Source: Aquimarina mycalae (lineage in GTDB: Bacteria; Bacteroidota; Bacteroidia; Flavobacteriales; Flavobacteriaceae). From it: DNA of 64,000 bases. Position numbers and translations under genes: made by a program. Positions 2,771-14,930 of this stretch are shown here, in pieces (the stretch's first letter is position 1; each line of letters opens with the position of its first letter). The stretch is from NCBI RefSeq assembly GCF_029906345.1, contig NZ_JARYGY010000007.1:1-64000 (forward strand), read 5' to 3'. The notes under the pieces are model-generated. The model worked only from the letters and a program-made list of their open reading frames with translations, did no database searches and had not been told where the DNA came from.

Positions 2771-3169
2771 TTATTTTATCTCTATTCTTAAATCAGAAGG
2801 AGCATTTTCACAACTTATTTTCACATCATGATTTTTATAAGTATTCACTCCGCAATTAATATACTCTTCCATTACATCTCCTAAAATCTCTATAACTTCA
2901 ACTTTAGGATTCTTTTTCTTATGTTCTTTAAATGGAATTATAATTTGAGGGTATTTATTAATTTCCCATATGTCCTGACTTATCATTTTGATATAAGGCT
3001 TTCTAGTATAATATGCTAAAACAGCACCTAATCCTAGAAGCAATATTCCTATATAAATAAGAATATTGGTAAGTATATTGTTTTCAATTACATTCCTTAA
3101 TACCTGACCTCCAAGAGATAATACAAAACCTAGTAATTGTAAGAATAAGTTACGTCTTTCTTTATTCAT
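2771..3169 (-). CDS. Membrane-anchored unknown array protein, 132 aa
   Basis: 132 residues: a short basic N-terminus, two hydrophobic segments (about residues 9-20 and 32-54), then a 75-residue soluble tail with alternating charged and hydrophobic residues, probably cytoplasmic. The first segment is shorter and weaker than a standard helix, so topology is uncertain. No family is recognised. ATG 3169 immediately follows an exact motif copy, and the stop abuts the next motif. Such small membrane proteins are frequent among immunity proteins against membrane-acting toxins, but nothing in the sequence proves that role. Confidence 0.6.
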   Translation of the reverse strand: MNKERRNLFLQLLGFVLSLGGQVLRNVIENNILTNILIYIGILLLGLGAVLAYYTRKPYIKMISQDIWEINKYPQIIIPFKEHKKKNPKVEVIEILGDVMEEYINCGVNTYKNHDVKISCENAPSDLRIEIK

Positions 3170-3184
3170 CGTTTTATTGAACTT
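3170..3184 (-). repeat. Array boundary motif, exact copy
   Basis: Exact CGTTTTATTGAACTT. Its internal TTA (3174-3176) is the stop codon of the upstream 86-aa gene, and ATG 3169 directly follows it. Confidence 0.9.
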
Positions 3185-3434
3185 TTGATTTATTGAAAAC
3201 GAAAAAATATATCCCTATTCCAAGGGTAATCAAAAAGAATAATAGAAAATAGGGATATGGTATATTTATCCCAATAAAATGAACATCATATTCAGTTAAA
3301 GGAATAATATTTCTTAAACTTCTTCTTTTAGAAATACCACCGTAAAAATCTTTTGTTTGTATTCCATAAAATAACATTAGTATTGAAAACAAAATTATTA
3401 TGAATGGTACTTTTTTATTTGATTTTATTTGCAT
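3174..3434 (-). CDS. Small two-helix membrane protein, array gene
   Basis: 86 residues with two hydrophobic helices (about 10-24 and 61-80) separated by a hydrophilic loop containing KRRSLRN. No known domain. The C-terminus K-V-Q and the stop codon are encoded by the boundary motif itself, an arrangement shared with two other genes of the array. The last five residues may therefore be scar sequence, not protein design. Its own start is preceded by a motif copy differing at two bases, 2 bp away from the ATG. Confidence 0.55.
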   Translation of the reverse strand: MQIKSNKKVPFIIILFSILMLFYGIQTKDFYGGISKRRSLRNIIPLTEYDVHFIGINIPYPYFLLFFLITLGIGIYFFVFNKSKVQ

Positions 3435-3436
3435 TT

Positions 3437-3451
3437 CTATTTATTGAACTT
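3437..3451 (-). repeat. Array boundary motif, 13/15 copy
   Basis: CTATTTATTGAACTT. The 11-bp core TTATTGAACTT is intact. The ATG of the 86-aa gene lies 2 bp beyond the motif. Confidence 0.75.
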
Positions 3452-4400: not shown

Positions 4401-4415
4401 CGTTTTATTGAACTT
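4401..4415 (-). repeat. Array boundary motif, exact copy
   Basis: Exact CGTTTTATTGAACTT. The upstream 122-aa gene stops at its last base, and ATG 4400 follows directly. Confidence 0.9.
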
Positions 4416-4783
4416 TAAAATTTTTTACTTTTTGCCACGACTTGAAATTCATCCTCATACAATATCATATCAGGTTTATCAGTCTTTAATACTCTAGTAT
4501 TCACATCATTTTCCTCAAGAATCGTGACTAAATCCCACATTTTATTTATGAATTCCTGAGCTGTGTCTTTAAACCATGCCACAGCCTCTTTGGGAATATT
4601 TTTTCTAGAGTATGGGGGTACAGGCAAATTATCATTAAAATATATAAATGTGTCCTCTAGAAAACCTATCTGGTAATCGAATAGTTGATTCTTGTCTTTT
4701 AGTATCTGTAATTCAGTAAAAAGCCCGTTCTGATTTCTGGCTTCTTCTGAATCTACACTTGCTACAAACCTCAAATACGTCAT
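4415..4783 (-). CDS. Conserved hypothetical protein, 122 aa
   Basis: A soluble 122-residue protein, MTYLRFVASVDSEEARN at the N-terminus, then VPPYSRKNIP, AVAWFKDTAQEFINKMW, KTDKPDMILYEDEFQVVA. I recall this pattern (start with xYxRFV, end with YEDExQVVA) in hypothetical proteins spread over distant bacterial phyla, so it is probably a mobile family; I cannot name it. ATG 4783 follows an exact motif copy, and its TAA (4415-4417) overlaps the next copy. It sits between an Abi-alpha protein and a candidate nuclease. Confidence 0.6.
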   Translation of the reverse strand: MTYLRFVASVDSEEARNQNGLFTELQILKDKNQLFDYQIGFLEDTFIYFNDNLPVPPYSRKNIPKEAVAWFKDTAQEFINKMWDLVTILEENDVNTRVLKTDKPDMILYEDEFQVVAKSKKF

Positions 4784-4798
4784 CGTTTTATTGAACTT
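4784..4798 (-). repeat. Array boundary motif, exact copy
   Basis: Exact CGTTTTATTGAACTT, directly before ATG 4783 on the coding strand. Confidence 0.9.
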
Positions 4799-4804
4799 TT
4801 TTTG

Positions 4805-6046
4805 TTATTTCGGAAAATGAAAAGCCATTATTTCAGTATATACCAATTTCCCTTTATCTTCTGGGAAATGCAATAAATAAGAAAAAGATGTTTCATCATT
4901 TGCTCCCACATATCGTATATAGTAGTCATGTTTTGGAATAGTAGTTTTGATTGTTTCGATAACAGTAGAAAAATCTTTGTTTTCGACAAACAGTATTATA
5001 GCAACCTTGCTATCCCTCCATGTTAAATACCTGTCAAATAATTGATTGACAGCATCTTTTAAGGCAATGGCTCCTTTCCATTTTTTACATTCGGCAATAA
5101 ACAAATTAGTGCCATCAATATGTTTAACTAAGATATCTGTACGTCCCTCCTTGTTGAATGTCTCACCTGTTACTGTAGCATTGTCAAACTTAAATTCAAG
5201 AAATGGTAAAATATAATCTCTAAGACCTTCCTCGTCTAGACCTCGATATATCTTCTTCTTTTTCTCTACAGATTTATAGATTAAATTTATAGTATTCAGG
5301 ATTTTATTATAAGTTTTATTTTTTAATTGTGGAATTTTGGAATATGAATTTTCTTTGGAATTCAAAACTTGATCTTGTTCTGGTAATATAGAAACTACAG
5401 GGGCATATATTACTTTGTCAATCGAAGAGTCTTCTTGCAAGTCCAAAGATTCAATAAAAGATTTTTCATTTTGTGCACTCATTAATCTTTGATTAAAAAT
5501 ATTCTCAAATTTGGATTCCAGCCCGCCCAAATACTCAGACAAATCTTTATTGATCTTTTGATAATTCTCTTCAATAAATTTTATGATACCTTTCTTCGCC
5601 AATTCAAACTTTGCTTTTGATTTTCCAGCAATTTTAAATTTTCCCTTGATAATACCCTTCTTCAAAGATTCTGAATCAACTTTGTACAAATTATCATTAT
5701 TATTGACACTTAGGGCAAAATTACTAGGCTTATAAGACAATAACTTATAATATCCTTCGAAAGGAATTGAATAAGTAAAGGAATAAACATCCATTTTATT
5801 TCTTACTCCGGTTCTAATTTCAAAATTTTTTCCCTCTTTGTTTTCTAAAGTAACTTGTAACTTATCAAATTTTATGCTTAATGGCTCAAAGGAATATTTA
5901 TCAATATAATATTCCTTAAGCTTCAGGTAATTAACACCCAAAATATACTCGTCAGTATGTCTATCTATTTCTGTTTTTATTTGATGTACATATTCAGGAA
6001 AAATTGTTATTGCCGTTCTTGAGCTGAAAAGATTGATAAATTTCAT
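4805..6046 (-). CDS. Two-domain protein with C-terminal PD-(D/E)XK nuclease-like domain
   Basis: 413 residues from ATG 6046. An in-frame ATG lies 14 codons upstream (6088) inside the previous gene. I chose 6046 because it sits exactly at the boundary motif like its neighbours. The first 260 residues match nothing I know. The C-terminal 150 look like a restriction-endonuclease fold: EEGLRDYILPFL (E about 273), GRTDIL (D304), then FIAECKKW with E319-C-K321, the D...ExK set. This predicts a Mg-dependent nuclease, either defence or toxin. The specificity is unknown. Confidence 0.6.
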   Translation of the reverse strand: MKFINLFSSRTAITIFPEYVHQIKTEIDRHTDEYILGVNYLKLKEYYIDKYSFEPLSIKFDKLQVTLENKEGKNFEIRTGVRNKMDVYSFTYSIPFEGYYKLLSYKPSNFALSVNNNDNLYKVDSESLKKGIIKGKFKIAGKSKAKFELAKKGIIKFIEENYQKINKDLSEYLGGLESKFENIFNQRLMSAQNEKSFIESLDLQEDSSIDKVIYAPVVSILPEQDQVLNSKENSYSKIPQLKNKTYNKILNTINLIYKSVEKKKKIYRGLDEEGLRDYILPFLEFKFDNATVTGETFNKEGRTDILVKHIDGTNLFIAECKKWKGAIALKDAVNQLFDRYLTWRDSKVAIILFVENKDFSTVIETIKTTIPKHDYYIRYVGANDETSFSYLLHFPEDKGKLVYTEIMAFHFPK

Positions 6047-6061
6047 CGTTTTATTGAACTT
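6047..6061 (-). repeat. Array boundary motif, exact copy
   Basis: Exact CGTTTTATTGAACTT. It supplies the stop codon (6051-6053) of the 158-aa gene, and ATG 6046 follows. Confidence 0.9.
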
Positions 6062-6988: not shown

Positions 6989-7711
6989 TTATTTTCTTCT
7001 TACAATTACAGTCATATTCTCTTCCTTATTTGAATTTTCTAAATATTCTTGTTGCATTTTGTCAATTTCGGCGTTATCAAAAATGTTATTCTTATTAGCA
7101 ACTTGTTTAATCCATTCTTTCATTAATAAAATCTCCTTACTACTATATAACGCACTTTTAATGTCAATATATAAGTAATCATATGTTTTTTTAGGAAGAA
7201 GTTCATAGAAATCTTCTTCTTTAAAAAAATGTTTGAAATAACTGAAATCTCCATTCAAACTATGCTTCCAAGAATGATTGGTAAAAAGTAGAATGCTACC
7301 TGATCCAATATTTTTTTCGATCTCGGTAATAAACTCTTTAGCTTCTTTTAGATCCAAGAAATGAAGCAAATTTGAAACAATTACTCCGGTAAAAATTAGT
7401 TTAGATAATTCTAATTCTGAATTCGGAAATCTTTCAGTGTAAAAAGTAATTTCATTCTTTGACTTTATCTTTTCAATTCTTCTTTTTAATGCATCTATTT
7501 GTATTGGTTCATCATCAATTGCAAAGAGCTGGTGATTGGAATTTTTACAAAAGTCTATTAGATATGGGCTCTGTCCACATCCAATATCAACTATCTTTCC
7601 TTTTTTTTGTGGATGGTAAACATCCATTAAATTCCTGAAGTTTTTAAGAAGATCATCATTTGTATAATACTTCTCATAAAGTTCCCAGTATATCTTTAGT
7701 TGTTCATTCAT
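6989..7711 (-). CDS. Class I SAM-dependent methyltransferase
   Basis: 240 residues. Motif I is VDIGCGQSPYL (41-51), followed by an acidic residue after the second strand (FAIDDEP, about 77-83) and a NLLHFLDLKEA segment. It belongs to the Rossmann-like class I methyltransferases. The substrate cannot be told; there is no NPPY-type DNA amino-methyltransferase motif, so a DNA modification role is not supported. The motif copy upstream is exact, but ATA replaces ATG after it, and the gene starts 12 bp further in. The gap downstream (6875-6988) holds nothing I can identify. Confidence 0.7.
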   Translation of the reverse strand: MNEQLKIYWELYEKYYTNDDLLKNFRNLMDVYHPQKKGKIVDIGCGQSPYLIDFCKNSNHQLFAIDDEPIQIDALKRRIEKIKSKNEITFYTERFPNSELELSKLIFTGVIVSNLLHFLDLKEAKEFITEIEKNIGSGSILLFTNHSWKHSLNGDFSYFKHFFKEEDFYELLPKKTYDYLYIDIKSALYSSKEILLMKEWIKQVANKNNIFDNAEIDKMQQEYLENSNKEENMTVIVRRK

Positions 7712-7723
7712 TTGAATTCCTAT

Positions 7724-7738
7724 CGTTTTATTGAACTT
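7724..7738 (-). repeat. Array boundary motif, exact copy
   Basis: Exact CGTTTTATTGAACTT. It provides the stop codon (7728-7730) of the 81-aa gene. It is followed by ATA, so the next ATG is displaced to 7711. Confidence 0.9.
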
Positions 7739-7973
7739 TTAAATTTGTACACCTTACGCCATGTACAAGTATGCCATTAAGTTTTATATCGAATTTGTAT
7801 GCATTAAGATTTTCGCCTTGATACATTCTTTTTTCTGATTTATTACAAATGATGACTTCAACATTTTTAGCTATAACATCCCCAGATAAATTTCTTTGCT
7901 CTGTTATCAAAATAGCTTTTACACCTGACCAATTACTCGAGCTTATTTCTTCATATTTATCTTCTGTTATCAT
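7728..7973 (-). CDS. Unknown small array protein, 81 aa
   Basis: 81 residues, soluble and probably beta-rich, no recognised domain. It begins MITEDKYEEISSSNWSG. The tail L-K-V-Q and the stop codon are encoded by the boundary motif, and ATG 7973 follows an exact copy directly. It is therefore framed by two perfect motif copies, forming a neat unit of about 250 bp. Confidence 0.55.
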   Translation of the reverse strand: MITEDKYEEISSSNWSGVKAILITEQRNLSGDVIAKNVEVIICNKSEKRMYQGENLNAYKFDIKLNGILVHGVRCTNLKVQ

Positions 7974-7988
7974 CGTTTTATTGAACTT
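7974..7988 (-). repeat. Array boundary motif, exact copy
   Basis: Exact CGTTTTATTGAACTT between the 89-aa gene and ATG 7973. Confidence 0.9.
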
Positions 7989-7991
7989 TAT

Positions 7992-8261
7992 TTATCTTGA
8001 ATCTTTAATAACTATAAAGTTATTTAGAACTCCAATGCATTTGAAAACTGTTGGATCGTTATAATTCCTATTTTTATTAATCTCGAATATTGAGAAAATG
8101 AAAAAATCTACTGTTTTCCCACCATGAGTTTCAACATAAGATTTCCTACTACCTTTGGCTATAAGATATTCCTTGAAATCAGAGTTACTTGGATTTGTAA
8201 AAACTAAGATTATTAATACCGAAATAGATATGATTAACAACTTGTTTTTGAACAACTTCAT
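7992..8261 (-). CDS. Short membrane-anchored or secreted protein, DUF4359-like
   Basis: 89 residues with one N-terminal hydrophobic helix (about 8-22) and then a short extracytoplasmic domain. FTNPSNSDFKEYL after the helix and a closing IGVLNNFIVI resemble the pattern I associate with DUF4359 proteins, a family of unknown function; this is a tentative match. ATG 8261 lies 15 bp past a motif copy with a TA/AT swap. An overlapping short frame (8185-8370) runs through its start. Confidence 0.5.
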   Translation of the reverse strand: MKLFKNKLLIISISVLIILVFTNPSNSDFKEYLIAKGSRKSYVETHGGKTVDFFIFSIFEINKNRNYNDPTVFKCIGVLNNFIVIKDSR

Positions 8262-8370
8262 TTCTATTTTGCTTATCGTTTATTTGAACTTTTAGGTTCT
8301 CTTTTTTAATTTCTTGATTACTCATTTTTTCTACTTTGATAACATCCCCATCAATTAATACTAGCACCAT
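8185..8370 (-). CDS. Possible short array gene reading through a mutated boundary motif
   Basis: The ATG at 8370 abuts the stop of the 347-aa gene. The frame encodes 61 residues. After residue 26 it reads L-K-V-Q, as the other array genes do, but the motif here is mutated (AAGTTCAAATAAACG on the coding strand), so the stop is lost and translation would continue into the next gene for about 30 residues. It may be a 29-residue peptide gene whose end was spoiled, or noise. Confidence 0.25.
   Translation of the reverse strand: MVLVLIDGDVIKVEKMSNQEIKKENLKVQINDKQNRNEVVQKQVVNHIYFGINNLSFYKSK
8277..8291 (-). repeat. Array boundary motif, 13/15 copy lacking the stop codon
   Basis: CGTTTATTTGAACTT; a TA to AT change removes the in-frame TAA found in other copies. 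Confidence 0.7.
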
Positions 8371-10326: not shown

Positions 10327-10369
10327 AAAAAACAAAAAATCCCTTACCCGGAGCTAATCCAGATAAGGG
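10327..10369 (-). terminator. Rho-independent terminator behind the serine recombinase
   Basis: CCCTTA (10341-10346) pairs with TAAGGG (10364-10369). On the minus strand the stem is followed by ATTTTTTGTTTTTT. It lies 54 bp after the recombinase stop and separates it from the small basic gene. Confidence 0.7.
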
Positions 10370-10422: not shown

Positions 10423-11103
10423 TTATTTTTTCCCTCTTTTATTTGTGTGCTTTTTGCAATATGCATTCTCTATTTGCTTGTCTTTATCCCAAAACATAGC
10501 TTTACAAACAACACAATTTCTGCGACCACGATGAGCTAGATATTTGTATAAAGTGGCTTTGGAATTAATATCCACTAGTTTCATAATTTCTAAAATAGAA
10601 AGCTGATTTTTCTCATCTCGGTAATAATTCTCAGCAAGAATAGCCTTTGATTCAGCTATTTTGCTTAAACCTTTTCTCCTACCAATCATAGTACCTCTTC
10701 TTCTTGCACTTTCCTGTCCGGCTAATGTTCGTTCTACAATGATATTTCTTTCCATTTCTGCAACAGCGCTAAAAATGGTGAGCACAAATTTTCCATGAGC
10801 AGATGTTGTATCTATGAAAGGCTCCTGTAAACTCCTAAAGCCGACTTCCAATTGTTCAAATTCATCAACCAGCTTTAACATATTAGAAACACTCCTAGCG
10901 ATTCGATCCATCTTCCAAACGATAACTATATCTTCTTCTCTCAATTTACTTAAAAGTAAATCCAGACTTTTCCGATTGGCTTTTGCTCCAGAAGAAACAT
11001 CTTTATAAATATTCTTTTCTTTTACTCCTGCTTTTAACAAAGCATCTATTTGTAAATCAAATTTCTGAGAGGGGGTACTTATACGTGCATATCCAAATAA
11101 CAT
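10423..11103 (-). CDS. Serine recombinase (resolvase/invertase family) with C-terminal Cys motif
   Basis: 226 residues. The resolvase catalytic domain is complete: Y5-A-R7-I-S9-T with nucleophile S9, KMDRIARS with R67 and R70, and the AEMERN helix (115-120). A helix-turn-helix region follows (about 166-190, ILEIMKLVDINSKATLYKYL). The last 30 residues hold C197-x2-C200 ... C216-x2-H219, a possible zinc knuckle not usual in short resolvases. Directly upstream are a perfect 14-bp inverted repeat and an array motif copy, so it likely acts on DNA next to its own gene and may move array units. It is followed by a good terminator. Confidence 0.9.
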   Translation of the reverse strand: MLFGYARISTPSQKFDLQIDALLKAGVKEKNIYKDVSSGAKANRKSLDLLLSKLREEDIVIVWKMDRIARSVSNMLKLVDEFEQLEVGFRSLQEPFIDTTSAHGKFVLTIFSAVAEMERNIIVERTLAGQESARRRGTMIGRRKGLSKIAESKAILAENYYRDEKNQLSILEIMKLVDINSKATLYKYLAHRGRRNCVVCKAMFWDKDKQIENAYCKKHTNKRGKK

Positions 11104-11150
11104 ATCGGTTCATTTAAGTGTTAAATCATAAACTTATTAAATGAACCGAT
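11104..11150. repeat. Perfect 14-bp inverted repeat upstream of the recombinase
   Basis: ATCGGTTCATTTAA (11104-11117) and its exact complement (11137-11150) flank 19 bp and begin at the base next to the recombinase ATG. The right arm shares its last four bases with an array motif copy (11147-11161). It is probably a recombinase binding site, serving as operator, res-like site or both. The recognition is by symmetry and position only. Confidence 0.7.
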
Positions 11151-11161
11151 TTATTGAACTT
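11147..11161 (-). repeat. Array boundary motif, 14/15 copy at the recombinase end
   Basis: CGATTTATTGAACTT, one base off consensus, fused to the inverted repeat upstream of the recombinase. It is the outermost copy, 1.7 kb from the next one, and could be the primary insertion site of the array. Confidence 0.75.
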
Positions 11162-11597
11162 GATGGACTTCGAGGTAGGATTTCTGAGATCCCGCCTCTA
11201 GGGCGGGATTAGTTCAACTATCTATTTTGATGTAGCGCTACGCGACTTTTCAACATAGAAGTTTCACTAAAACCACTGGTTAAATATACTCCTATTCAGG
11301 TAGTATTCATTCACATAAATTTATGCCATATCATTTCTTACGCTCCAAAACTACTGTAAACAAACTATCGGATTGGGGTTCATCGTTATGAAACTTGATT
11401 TCAGCTACTGTCCTTTTTCTTTTAAAATGATTCTGGGGGCGACTTTCCTGTTTTTTTATAATAGCATTAAACTTCAATATTGTGAATAATTTATATATAA
11501 CTTATGTTTTTATGTTTATCATAAATTGGGGAATAATCTCCTAATAATATTATATTTAGGAAAAATCAAAAACAATAATTCCATAATTTAAAAATGT
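11162..11597. other. Gene-free stretch between recombinase and Roco gene
   Basis: No gene of any size is convincing here. It holds a GC-rich hairpin, ATCCCGCC/GGCGGGAT (11189-11209, 5-nt loop), which stands out in AT-rich surroundings. A possible promoter for the Roco gene is TTG at 11526-11528 with TATATTTA at 11551-11558, 22 bp apart. The rest shows nothing I can name. Confidence 0.4.
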
Positions 11598-14500
11598 ATG
11601 TCTGATTCAAAAATTATTAAAGAAATTGAACAACGACTATCTAAGATTCCTGTTTTCAGACTTTATGATAATGATGATGATCTATTCTTGCCAAATGGAT
11701 ATTCAATGGATAATAATAATAAGGTGAATAAACTTTCTATTCAACTTGAAAGAGGCATAGAAGGACCTGAAAATATAGGTTTAAGCAAAGAAACATTGCT
11801 GCTAATTTGTGAATTAGTAAACCTTGAAGTATTAGATTTAGCACATAATTATATACCTTATTTACCAAAGGAAATAGGCAATCTAAAAAACTTAAAAGAA
11901 TTATTTCTAGGAGGGAATTCTTTGACTAGTCTCCCATCAGAAATAAGAAAATTAACTCGCCTTAAGAAATTATCCTTAAATTCAAATCAATTTGAGGTTT
12001 TACCATTAGAAATAACCAGCTTAATAAATTTAGAACAGTTAAGTATAAATTCAAATGGAATTAAGTATTTGCCAGTAGAAATAGGAAATTTGACAAAACT
12101 TAATAAGTTAGAGATTAATAAAAACCGGCTTCAAGATCTATCTTCAGAAGTAGGTAACCTTCAAAAAATTCATACATTAGATTTAAGTGCAAATTATCTT
12201 CGCACTCTACCAAGGACAATTAATAAACTAAATAGAATAATTGATTTATCTATTGGAGCCAATTTATTAGAAAATTTCCCTTTAGAAATTGGTAGTATGC
12301 AAAAGTTAAAGGTTTTGAATTTAAGCAATAATAAATTAAAAAATATACCGAAGGAAATAGAAGGTTTAACACACCTTGAAATATTGCACATAAATAATAA
12401 TCACTTAGAAAAGATATCACCAAAAATTAAATATTTAAAAGCTCTTCAGAAGTTGTTTATTAATTCAAATCAATTAGAATATCTGCCTAGTGAAATAGGT
12501 GAGTTATCAAATCTAAAGTTCTTATTATTGAATTCTAATCAATTAACCAATTTACCTTCGGAAATTGGAATGTTGTCAAACCTTCTAAAATTAGATTTAG
12601 ATTTTAATCAAATAGATCAACTACCGCCAGAGATTGGTCAATTACTATCTTTAAAAGAATTGTCTCTAAATTCGAATAAATTAAGTAATATACCTTCGGA
12701 GATTGGAGATCTAAAAGGGCTGATGAAATTAGAGTTAAAATTGAACCCCAATATAGTGTCTCCTCCTCTTTCTGTATTAGAAAAAGGTTTAACAAACATT
12801 CAAAAATATTTAAGTACATCACAAGTAAAGGTTTGGAAAGGAAAAGTGGTTATAATAGGAGAAGGTGGTGTAGGAAAATCTTGCCTATTAGATGCTATAG
12901 AGGAAAAGCCTTTTAATTCTAATAATCCTACCACTCATGGTATAAATATCAGAAAAATAGAAGCCTCACTAAATGTTGAAAACAAAATGGAACTTAATTT
13001 TTGGGACTTTGGGGGACAAGATATTTATCACGCTACGCATCAATTTTATTTAAGTAATCATTCTCTTTTTATTTTAGTATGGAATGCTCGACAAGGGTTC
13101 GAAGCAGGAAAGGTAGAAAAATGGCTAGAAACTATTGAAGCTTTAGCTCCTGAATCTCCCATACTTGTGGTAGCGACTAATACTAAAGAAAGAGGTGCAG
13201 ATCTCCCTAAAGATGAATTTAAGCAAAGGTTTATAAATATTAAGAGTTTTATCAATATTGATAATGAAAATAATTATGGAATTTCTTTATTAAAAGAAAA
13301 AATTAAAAACGAAGCTCTTCAAATACCCTATATGGGTGTTGATAGACCACAAACTTGGATAAAGTCTATGGAAAGCCTTTCGTTGATGGAAGAGAAATAT
13401 ATAACCAAGCGAGAACTTTTTAGCATATTTAAGAGAAATGAAGTTTATAAAGAAAATTACGAGAGTTTTGCTAATTATTTACACGCCTTGGGAGAAATTT
13501 TATATTATCCGGAAGATGAAGAATTATGTAATACCATTATTTTAAAGCCTAAATGGGTTAGTGAACACATAGCACGAGTATTAGATAACGAAACCATTAC
13601 GAAAAATGCAGGCTTTTTAAATAAGACTTTAATGCAGAATCTATGGCATGATTTAGATTCCGATACACAAGTAAAATTTCTCAGTCTAATGGAAAAATTT
13701 GATCTCTCATATCGTACTGATGAAAGAGGAGTTTGTTTAGTGGTAGAAAAACTCAAGCACGAGGAGGATTTAAGATATGTAGAACCTTGGGAAAATAAAA
13801 AGGAAACAAAAGAGATTCATTTTATTTATCAACTTAGTGTAATTCCTGCTGGAGTTCCGACTTGGTTTATTGCTCGAACACATCGTTATTCCAAATTCAT
13901 TCATTGGAAAAATGGAGCGTTTTTAGAAGATAATCAAAGTGATTCGCTATGTTTAATTATTGCTTCTGAATTCAATAGAGAAATCCATTTGAAAGTAAGA
14001 GGGTCTAACCCTTATTCATTCTTTTACAAACTAAGGGATATATTTGAACATACTTTGTCAAGGTTTAAAGGATTGAGTGTGAAAATTTATGTTCCATGTA
14101 GAGGCAATGGAGTTGATTTGTGTGAACATAATTTCAGGTTGGAATTATTGAAGAAAAGATTAGAAAAAAAACCACCGATAACGAATATTGAATGTCCGGT
14201 GGAGATAGAAATAAAGAGTGTCACAGAATTACTTTTTGGAATAAGCGACACCAGTGTTCCTGACGTTTTAGCTAAAATTAAAGAAAATACTGAATCTATT
14301 CTTCAAAATTCAAATCAAAAAAACGAAAATCTTAAAAATGAATTATTGGACTTGAAAGAATATATTCAATTACAATTTATTCATCAAAACCAATCAATAC
14401 AGAAATTATTAGATATATCCTGTCCTAATATATTTACTTTTAAACCAAAGAATATTCTAGATTGGGGTAATGTCGATATTAGTCAACATGTTTTTGAACT

Positions 14501-14930
14501 TACTCTCTATTGTCAAATGCCAGGAAAAATGCATCCAGTAGTCACGTATGAGATCACGGAAAATAGAGATTGGGTAAATTCAATATTACCATATTATAAT
14601 AAAATGCTTAGACTTGTTAGAATTGCCGTTCCTTTTGTTTTTGAAGGAGCATCGGGATTATTAACAATTAAACACGATGGAGTTTTAAAAAAATTAACGA
14701 CTATTACTAAGCCTCTTAAACCTATACCTATTGAAGATAATATAGTTGAACCAGATCTGATTTATACAAGTAAAACATTTAGTAATCATAATGATGGTAA
14801 TACAATTAGACTTTTAAAAGAAACTTTGAAAAAAGCTGACCCAAGTTGTAATTGGGGTGGGTTAAGTAGAAAAGTTACATCAGAAGGTAAAGTATTATGG
14901 CTTTGCAAGGAACATTATAATGAAATTTAG
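11598..14930 (+). CDS. Roco protein: leucine-rich repeats, Roc GTPase, COR domain
   Basis: 1110 residues. Residues about 75-395 are 13-14 leucine-rich repeats of 23 residues (L..LxLxxNxLxxLPxEIGxL). The Roc GTPase follows: P-loop GEGGVGKS (421-428), switch region DFGGQ (470-474), TNTKE (527-531). Then comes a COR domain (about 590-860) and a 200-residue C-terminal extension with a coiled-coil-like stretch (890-945). Unlike LRRK2 there is no kinase. Bacterial Roco proteins dimerise through COR and cycle between GDP and GTP forms; their cellular roles are mostly unknown. It lies inside the island, read away from the recombinase, as a single-gene unit, and could be accessory cargo. Confidence 0.9.
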   Translation: MSDSKIIKEIEQRLSKIPVFRLYDNDDDLFLPNGYSMDNNNKVNKLSIQLERGIEGPENIGLSKETLLLICELVNLEVLDLAHNYIPYLPKEIGNLKNLKELFLGGNSLTSLPSEIRKLTRLKKLSLNSNQFEVLPLEITSLINLEQLSINSNGIKYLPVEIGNLTKLNKLEINKNRLQDLSSEVGNLQKIHTLDLSANYLRTLPRTINKLNRIIDLSIGANLLENFPLEIGSMQKLKVLNLSNNKLKNIPKEIEGLTHLEILHINNNHLEKISPKIKYLKALQKLFINSNQLEYLPSEIGELSNLKFLLLNSNQLTNLPSEIGMLSNLLKLDLDFNQIDQLPPEIGQLLSLKELSLNSNKLSNIPSEIGDLKGLMKLELKLNPNIVSPPLSVLEKGLTNIQKYLSTSQVKVWKGKVVIIGEGGVGKSCLLDAIEEKPFNSNNPTTHGINIRKIEASLNVENKMELNFWDFGGQDIYHATHQFYLSNHSLFILVWNARQGFEAGKVEKWLETIEALAPESPILVVATNTKERGADLPKDEFKQRFINIKSFINIDNENNYGISLLKEKIKNEALQIPYMGVDRPQTWIKSMESLSLMEEKYITKRELFSIFKRNEVYKENYESFANYLHALGEILYYPEDEELCNTIILKPKWVSEHIARVLDNETITKNAGFLNKTLMQNLWHDLDSDTQVKFLSLMEKFDLSYRTDERGVCLVVEKLKHEEDLRYVEPWENKKETKEIHFIYQLSVIPAGVPTWFIARTHRYSKFIHWKNGAFLEDNQSDSLCLIIASEFNREIHLKVRGSNPYSFFYKLRDIFEHTLSRFKGLSVKIYVPCRGNGVDLCEHNFRLELLKKRLEKKPPITNIECPVEIEIKSVTELLFGISDTSVPDVLAKIKENTESILQNSNQKNENLKNELLDLKEYIQLQFIHQNQSIQKLLDISCPNIFTFKPKNILDWGNVDISQHVFELTLYCQMPGKMHPVVTYEITENRDWVNSILPYYNKMLRLVRIAVPFVFEGASGLLTIKHDGVLKKLTTITKPLKPIPIEDNIVEPDLIYTSKTFSNHNDGNTIRLLKETLKKADPSCNWGGLSRKVTSEGKVLWLCKEHYNEI

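Follow-up and report, generated by a model that had tools for sequence, protein, structure and literature searches.

The recombinase gene and its surroundings

The window, i.e., the whole stretch of 64,000 nucleotides of Aquimarina mycalae DNA analysed here, carries on its minus strand a gene for a small serine recombinase of 226 aa (10426-11103, stop codon at 10423-10425). Aquimarina is a member of the Flavobacteriaceae. The protein matches the Pfam Resolvase family (PF00239, E 6.8e-39) and is composed of a resolvase domain with YARIS and DRIARS segments, a three-helix HTH and a C-terminal CxxC...CxxH tail. Residues Y5, R7, S9, D66, R67, R70 and S71 are invariant in an alignment of 17 orthologous sequences; S9, R7, R67 and R70 are presumably the catalytic residues, and the N-terminal domain is that of a resolvase with its catalytic Ser and Arg. 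In the AlphaFold2 model (mean pLDDT 75.6, pTM 0.40), a long helix at residues 102-135 is followed by helices at 148-162, 170-177 and 182-191, which is the long E helix and C-terminal helix-turn-helix arrangement of small serine recombinases, and the best Foldseek match is the gamma-delta resolvase-DNA structure 1gdt (E 3.6e-14, 188 columns). The NCBIfam model of the Mpi family scores 59.7 bits against a cut-off of 272. The CxxC...CxxH tail is present in the closer orthologues and may have a role involving zinc. A terminator-like hairpin lies 3′ of the gene on the same strand (10341-10369; one found, 0.6 expected in shuffles).

Relatives of the recombinase occur in phages, at less than 60% identity, and, according to annotation, on plasmids of Aureispira and Runella, where they are 51-54% identical. 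No motif array of the Aquimarina type was seen near the distant relatives from many taxa (loci L069-L095 except L077), among which L078 and L083 have a single motif copy each, with two mismatches.

Downstream of the gene lies an array of ORFs punctuated by a short motif, CGTTTTATTGAACTT, all on the minus strand. Exact copies of the motif are found at 2302-2316, 3170-3184, 4401-4415, 4784-4798, 6047-6061, 7724-7738 and 7974-7988, a copy with one mismatch at 2756-2770 and one with two mismatches at 3437-3451; the variant at 8275-8291, AAGTTCAAATAAACGAT, is the form used in other genera. The cassette ORFs at 2318-2755 and 4418-4783 have no Pfam family, those at 2774-3169 and 4808-6046 have none above the cut-off (Pfam for the former), and further cassette ORFs lie at 3177-3434 and 7995-8261. 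The ORF at 3465-4400 matches Abi_alpha (abortive infection; Pfam, E 1.6e-23), the one at 6992-7711 is methyltransferase-like, below the NCBIfam cut-offs, and the one at 7731-7973 is shared with genome G014. A gene for a large LRR-Roc-COR (Roco) protein (11598-14930) lies just upstream of the head of the array. At the contig start (202-1143), the strand opposite to the array encodes the C-terminal part of a protein of Rhs type, matched by the Rhs core model; this gene, near the distal end of the array, is possibly a toxin gene beside it.

An inverted repeat abutting the start codon

The start codon of the recombinase gene (ATG, complement of 11101-11103) is directly abutted by a perfect inverted repeat with 14-bp arms at 11104-11117 (ATCGGTTCATTTAA) and 11137-11150 (TTAAATGAACCGAT), separated by a spacer of 19 nt. 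The outer arm merges with CGATTTATTGAACTT at 11147-11161, which is a copy of the array motif with one mismatch (14/15). The arrangement is exactly as the original prediction described it. Dinucleotide shuffles of the 64 kb contain on average 0.09 perfect 14-bp inverted repeats with spacers of 3-60, and at least one occurs in 8 of 100 shuffles; the window itself contains three. Judged by chance alone, the repeat is no more than moderately unusual, uncommon rather than extraordinary; the decisive evidence is its conservation.

Conservation is strong among close relatives. The 8-bp cores of the arms, GTTCATTT and AAATGAAC, are invariant at all 12 Aquimarina loci whose recombinase is at least 86% identical; these loci were found by protein search, not by the repeat, and represent 11 distinct 62-bp upstream sequences, that of L058 and L037 being identical. 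Mean pairwise difference is 0.00 in the arms and 0.14 in the spacer, compared with 0.26 at codon third positions over the first 40 codons (computed without L057). A check beside orthologous genes for an absent repeat thus found it present in 12 of 12 close cases, and a related but altered site in other genera; the relatives L039 (72%) and L044 (68%) have different arms. A scan of the genus allowing spacers of 10-24 returned 40 places, spread over 26 of the 66 genomes, and one for the reversed control; removal of three places with unrelated spacers and four second-strand readings left 33 sites in 24 genomes, every one 40 bp long. The conserved part of the arm, about 8-9 bp, is shorter than the full 14 bp.

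Layout of the head

Read on the recombinase strand from 11159 down to 11108, the head takes the form a>b>c><d with a spacing of 13 bp, i.e., GTTCAATAAATCG, GTTCATTTAATAA and the 26-bp GTTTATGATTTAACACTTAAATGAAC. Putative half-site a (11147-11161, minus strand) is the array-motif copy with 14/15 matches; GGTTCATTT comes after it in place of GAT. Half-site b (11134-11146, minus strand; GTTCATTTAATAA) is a direct repeat 13 bp upstream of c, and c and d form a converging 26-bp pair (11108-11133, minus strand; GTTTATGATTTAACACTTAAATGAAC) whose spacing is kept in other genera. The inner arm of the inverted repeat contains half-site d (GTTCATTT), and the outer arm overlaps b and a. The inverted repeat would therefore represent two members, b and d, of a region with four half-sites. 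Part of the original prediction holds: repeat and motif copy do form one conserved region at the head of arrays; its two arms, by contrast, appear to belong to two of four half-sites and not to one site.

Comparison across loci is consistent with this layout. The c box is present at 22 of the 26 loci considered, and GT starts both the b position (12-14 upstream of c) and the a position (25-27 upstream) in 20 of these 22, for a chance of about 0.16 per position with three allowed offsets; the c-box pattern was chosen post hoc, and 11 of the 26 loci are close Aquimarina relatives. In other genera, whose orthologues are 50-67% identical, a similar 13-bp tiling precedes the gene with changed letters. 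The outer 8 bp of c and d are fully palindromic (8/8) in L233 and L244, from other genera, but complementary at just 4-5 of 8 positions at 11 Aquimarina loci, where b and d pair perfectly, which leaves the pair that would hold a dimer uncertain. Upstream of 15 more distant orthologues, the dyads that score best are 26-30 bp long and not 39. This shift, which fits several protein half-sites rather than one fixed stem, led to the rejection of one fixed inverted repeat as the binding site. Simple covariation of the head half-site with the array motif was also considered and rejected, since the half-sites of heads in other genera are altered (GTATA, GTTTA) while their array motif remains GTTCAA.

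Recombinases of 45-47% identity (L047, L048, L049, L051) have GTCTC half-sites in a similar upstream layout. When an array of the GTCTC type was sought, AAGTCTCATAAAACG, with one mismatch allowed, was rarer than its reversed control, and no repeated 12-mers were found around four recombinase genes of this type (L134-L137); these are possibly a related solitary system.

Farther upstream, comparison of the sequences preceding orthologous genes delineates L′, a diverged inverted copy of the motif (AAGTTTCACTAAAACCAC, 11259-11276, plus strand; AAAGTTCAATAAAACCAC in other loci) near the left limit of the conserved head. L′ generally lies some 30-100 bp further upstream of a-d; in the window it is found beyond a GC-rich hairpin, ATCCCGCC-TCTA-GGGCGGGAT (11189-11209), which belongs to a leader of about 110 bp that we call type B. 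A similar element lies upstream of the recombinase in L035, L059, L068 and others, with a loop that varies between loci. The hairpin in the window has no Rfam match at the gathering threshold. At the right end of the conserved head, similarity stops, by eye, at a terminator-like hairpin.

The array motif and its cassettes

In the genome from which the window comes, all seven exact copies of the array motif in 5.2 Mb fall within the array described above. Isolated copies with one mismatch occur outside it (L096, G000:C1 ~635517; L097, G000:C26 ~187364). Throughout the genus, AAGTTCAATAAAACG has 136 exact copies in 33 of 66 genomes, against one for the reversed control. Conservation extends over about 18 bp, AAAGTTCAATAAAACGAT, and fades in the flanks; only one half-site of the motif is conserved.

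It had been supposed that units are exchanged at the motif, and block comparisons bear this out. The homologous blocks shared between regions were limited to lengths of 150-3000 bp and identities under 99.9%, and where fetched regions overlap, matches exceeding 99.5% were dropped. Of 500 such blocks, 36 begin and end no more than 6 bp from a motif, compared with 0 of 500 in each of eight shifted controls. Single block ends fall within 6 bp of a motif in 237 of 1000 cases, against 12-68 per 1000 for controls shifted by 100-400 bases; the pairs and loci compared are not phylogenetically independent. The window provides its own example: the block 7715-7989, which contains the ORF at 7731-7973, is 93.5% identical to positions 11832-12106 of L155 in G014, and there the same cassette has a different upstream neighbour across the motif at 7974-7988 and a different downstream neighbour across that at 7724-7738. 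As far as sequence comparison can tell, the array is a genuine cassette system whose units are exchanged between genomes at the motif.

Variation inside the motif locates the exchange. Positions 9-10 track the upstream cassette, with mismatch frequencies of 0.05/0.05 when that cassette is shared (61 pairs) and 0.32/0.27 when only the downstream one is (22 pairs), for a background of 0.23/0.18. Position 15 tracks the downstream cassette, with a mismatch frequency of 0 when it is shared, 0.21 otherwise and 0.14 in the background. Positions 16-17 agree with position 15 but hardly vary, and position 13 is mixed; positions 14, 16 and 17 are too invariant to carry weight alone. The pairs overlap in membership, and greedy independent sets of 26 and 16 pairs give the same trend. 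This split between positions 9-10 and position 15 places the exchange inside the motif near AAC|GAT, i.e., in its 3′ part, with the motif at the 3′ end of the unit. A unit then reads roughly GAT-ORF-AAAGTTCAATAAAAC.

The 168 scored units encode proteins with a median length of 113 aa, and in 62 of them the start codon immediately follows the motif. For 96 motif copies, heads and L′ included, the next 70 bases contain no start of an ORF of 50 aa. Units are compact, yet they are not uniform and not always one clean ORF. From 148 non-redundant units, 139 proteins were scanned, the nine omitted being the recombinase, ORFs at L′ and some that were short. They match 41 Pfam families, three of which have two members and all others a single one, and at least 95 proteins have no match. 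The families include Abi_alpha, Imm7, SUKH types, and DpnII-type and HNH nucleases; immunity-type matches amount to one Imm7 and one for each of two SUKH-type models. PADLOC hits are scattered among the array units.

Association of the recombinase with heads and arrays

Nineteen Aquimarina heads were picked by hand among those whose surroundings had been fetched, which gave 219 kb of sequence on the downstream and 69 kb on the upstream side. With a and L′ excluded as lying less than 150 bp from the head, 108 of 109 motif copies around these heads are downstream and co-oriented, the sole exception being a copy with two mismatches in L156. Arrays of other genera use AAAGTTCAAATAAA(C/G)GAT. Here, 63 of 64 motif copies, at 13 of 15 loci, are on the recombinase strand, the exception being the L′ of that very head, and the other two loci have no motif copy; as these regions are mainly downstream sequence, the figure says little about the upstream side. 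The p-value of this strand bias, 1.4e-17, was computed on 62 of 63 copies, compared with the 63 of 64 listed. Among 397 genomes of the family, as grouped by the genome search, the recombinase (E up to 1e-40) is present in 20, the exact motif in 34 and both in 15. The motif thus occurs in 15 of 20 recombinase genomes, five having no exact copy, against 19 of 377 others (p=4e-14, uncorrected for kinship). Recombinase, head and co-oriented array therefore go together in several genera. By sequence comparison, the site and its layout are conserved at the head of a shuffling cassette array in several related marine genera.

Several observations concern the genomic context of heads. In G061:C31 (L317/L162), the head module adjoins, by eye, an apparent tRNA region and a tyrosine-integrase gene, which suggests that it is part of a small genomic island. 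In L144, L218 and L220, an ORF of about 174-194 aa recurs upstream of the head; its C-terminal segment is HTH-like (SKTTYYRV/SKTTFYRV), and in one case it is fused to a motif copy. In L138, L139, L177 and L225, heads follow a pair of ORFs, one beginning MGHYKGYS and the other with NRYGITGIKYNIF or similar near its end; the pair may be either a shared mobile context or an insertion hotspot.

Function of the head site

The repeat is most likely a binding and synapsis site of the serine recombinase that also serves in autoregulation, and not an attI-like insertion point. More precisely, it would represent two of four tandem half-sites bound by the small serine recombinase at the head of a cassette array, a reading to which we assign a probability of roughly two in three. 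The a-d layout fits multi-half-site binding of the res type beside the gene, at least as judged from the arrangement of the letters. The recombinase would bind half-sites a-d, cut at the motif (left half-site GTTCAATAAAACG), and release and re-join units, and the a-d cluster would assemble a synaptic complex that confines recombination to array sites. Because the cluster abuts the start codon, it may also repress the recombinase gene, as in the res sites of resolvases. L′ would mark the outer limit of a portable head module. This reading is weakened by the single-sided conservation of the motif half-site, by head and motif letters that do not simply covary, by the many heads without the gene and by the RNA fold of b and d.

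The position of the repeat against the start codon, together with a conserved TAAGTTTA in the spacer that could be a promoter -7 box by the Bacteroidetes consensus, would also suit a repressor or autoregulatory operator with no role in recombination. However, the half-sites resemble the array motif and L′, and the site outlives the gene. Of 34 heads identified with a relaxed pattern and compared by tblastn, 10 match at least 200 recombinase residues, 2 match 45-49 and 22 match fewer than 40; a-d is thus retained in 24 heads despite the loss of most of the gene, and an operator of that gene would have nothing left to control. We regard an operator alone as unlikely. By eye, the gene-deleted heads (L145, L155, L159, L161, L164, L172, L175 and others) apparently have one common internal deletion, by which some 18 codons of the N terminus are fused to the C-terminal end; they are MITE-like derivatives, with several copies in some genomes. 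Several of them precede arrays, as in L155, which has 14 motif copies.

The original prediction likened the site to the attI next to an integrase, where new cassettes would be inserted at the motif copy beside the repeat (half-site a). The head does carry a motif copy, two leader types are joined at this copy to the same downstream site, and in L196, and again in L218, the end of a foreign gene is joined at a (by eye, one among 33 head sites). However, insertion at a would place cassettes upstream of the recombinase gene, and 108 of the 109 copies around the 19 heads lie downstream; the attI comparison is left without support because the cassettes lie beyond the gene and not at the repeat. The expectation that new units would appear at the head end fares no better in the only close pair compared. 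Over the 37-39 kb compared, G044 and G061 have a single common block of at least 100 bp, 2,692 bp long and 99.48% identical, with unrelated flanks. From a point 36 bp outside L′ it extends over head, recombinase and proximal units to a position just beyond a motif; proximal units are common to the two genomes and distal units differ. In this one case, the block limits point to a portable module and argue against growth at the head-proximal end. An attI-like master site is accordingly quite unlikely.

Translational control of the recombinase by an RNA hairpin at its start codon is kept as a rival since the b-d stem folds well in six of six Aquimarina leaders (z -5.1 in the window; -1.9, -2.9, -3.0, -3.0 and -4.4 in relatives), but folding is inconsistent elsewhere. 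Any DNA dyad at this place would fold as RNA, z reaches -2 or below in just two of seven more distant leaders (L233, L234, L236, L237, L240, L243 and L039), the pairing partners differ there, the site persists where the gene is lost, and there is no Rfam match; such a control element is very unlikely. The 62 of 168 start codons directly after the array motif might suggest that it serves unrelated genes as a conserved promoter or translation element and is not a recombination site, but this is hardly credible given that all seven exact copies in 5.2 Mb lie within the array, that homologous blocks end at the motif and that junction variants split inside it.

Comparison with known systems

In integrons, from which gene cassettes are chiefly known, cassettes are handled by tyrosine recombinases acting on folded DNA. 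The arrays described here resemble them in having exchangeable ORF units bounded by one type of site, which lies at the 3′ end with a crossover near its 3′ side, and in the existence of arrays with no intact recombinase gene, similar to CALINs. They differ in that the recombinase is a serine and not an IntI tyrosine recombinase, in that the cassettes are found beyond a recombinase gene of the same direction, and in the site itself: instead of a folded attC, there is an 18-bp motif with unconserved flanks, no flank conservation comparable to attC being found around the ~18 conserved bp (judged on conservation alone). Invertases of the Mpi/Hin type are relatives by their resolvase domain and have 26-bp sites; here, however, the 19-bp spacer is too short for an invertible segment and arrays have a single orientation.

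The role of Tn3-gamma-delta resolvases is the resolution of plasmids or cointegrates. Their res sites are likewise positioned beside the recombinase gene; they are not known to be associated with a cassette array. In the present system, half-sites are tiled every 13 bp with an inverted L′ upstream. Sin has the same role in plasmid or cointegrate resolution, and its site II consists of head-to-tail half-sites (PMC2428073). The likeness to Sin and to Tn3-gamma-delta res lies in a small serine recombinase of the same fold and in the combination of a converging pair with head-to-tail half-sites.

The nearest analogue of the array, going by the accessible portion of its description, is the recombinase-associated acquired interbacterial defence (rAID) system of Bacteroidales, for which a predicted tyrosine recombinase is defining (PMC12247911). 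In both systems, one recombinase gene heads co-oriented short genes with conserved intergenic motifs (PMC12247911); the corresponding figures here are 108/109 and 63/64 co-oriented copies and a median of 113 aa. The defining tyrosine recombinase is not found here, where the enzyme is a serine recombinase (PMC12247911). As to immunity proteins, which would be the products of rAID units, the 139 proteins scanned here gave single Imm7 and SUKH-type hits. That portion of the rAID description mentions neither multi-half-site heads nor exchange mapped inside the motif (PMC12247911), both of which are found here. Among the titles and abstract openings listed in searches of open-licence PMC papers, none describes a serine-recombinase cassette array.

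Altogether, we tentatively propose, at somewhat under even odds, that Flavobacteriaceae possess a serine-recombinase counterpart of the integron, i.e., a platform that captures and shuffles cassettes with an 18-bp 3′ site, a res-like multi-half-site head and a recombinase that often has a CxxC...CxxH tail, accompanied by non-autonomous gene-deleted heads that may be worked in trans. If true, this would offer a simple 18-bp site amenable to testing, and it would raise the question of what guides a small serine recombinase to sites of which only one half is conserved. It would mean that the stockpiling of genes in modules has also arisen through another chemistry, in several genera with a small serine recombinase, and it would point to a store of mobile genes in marine bacteria, most of them uncharacterised and a few resembling defence or immunity genes.
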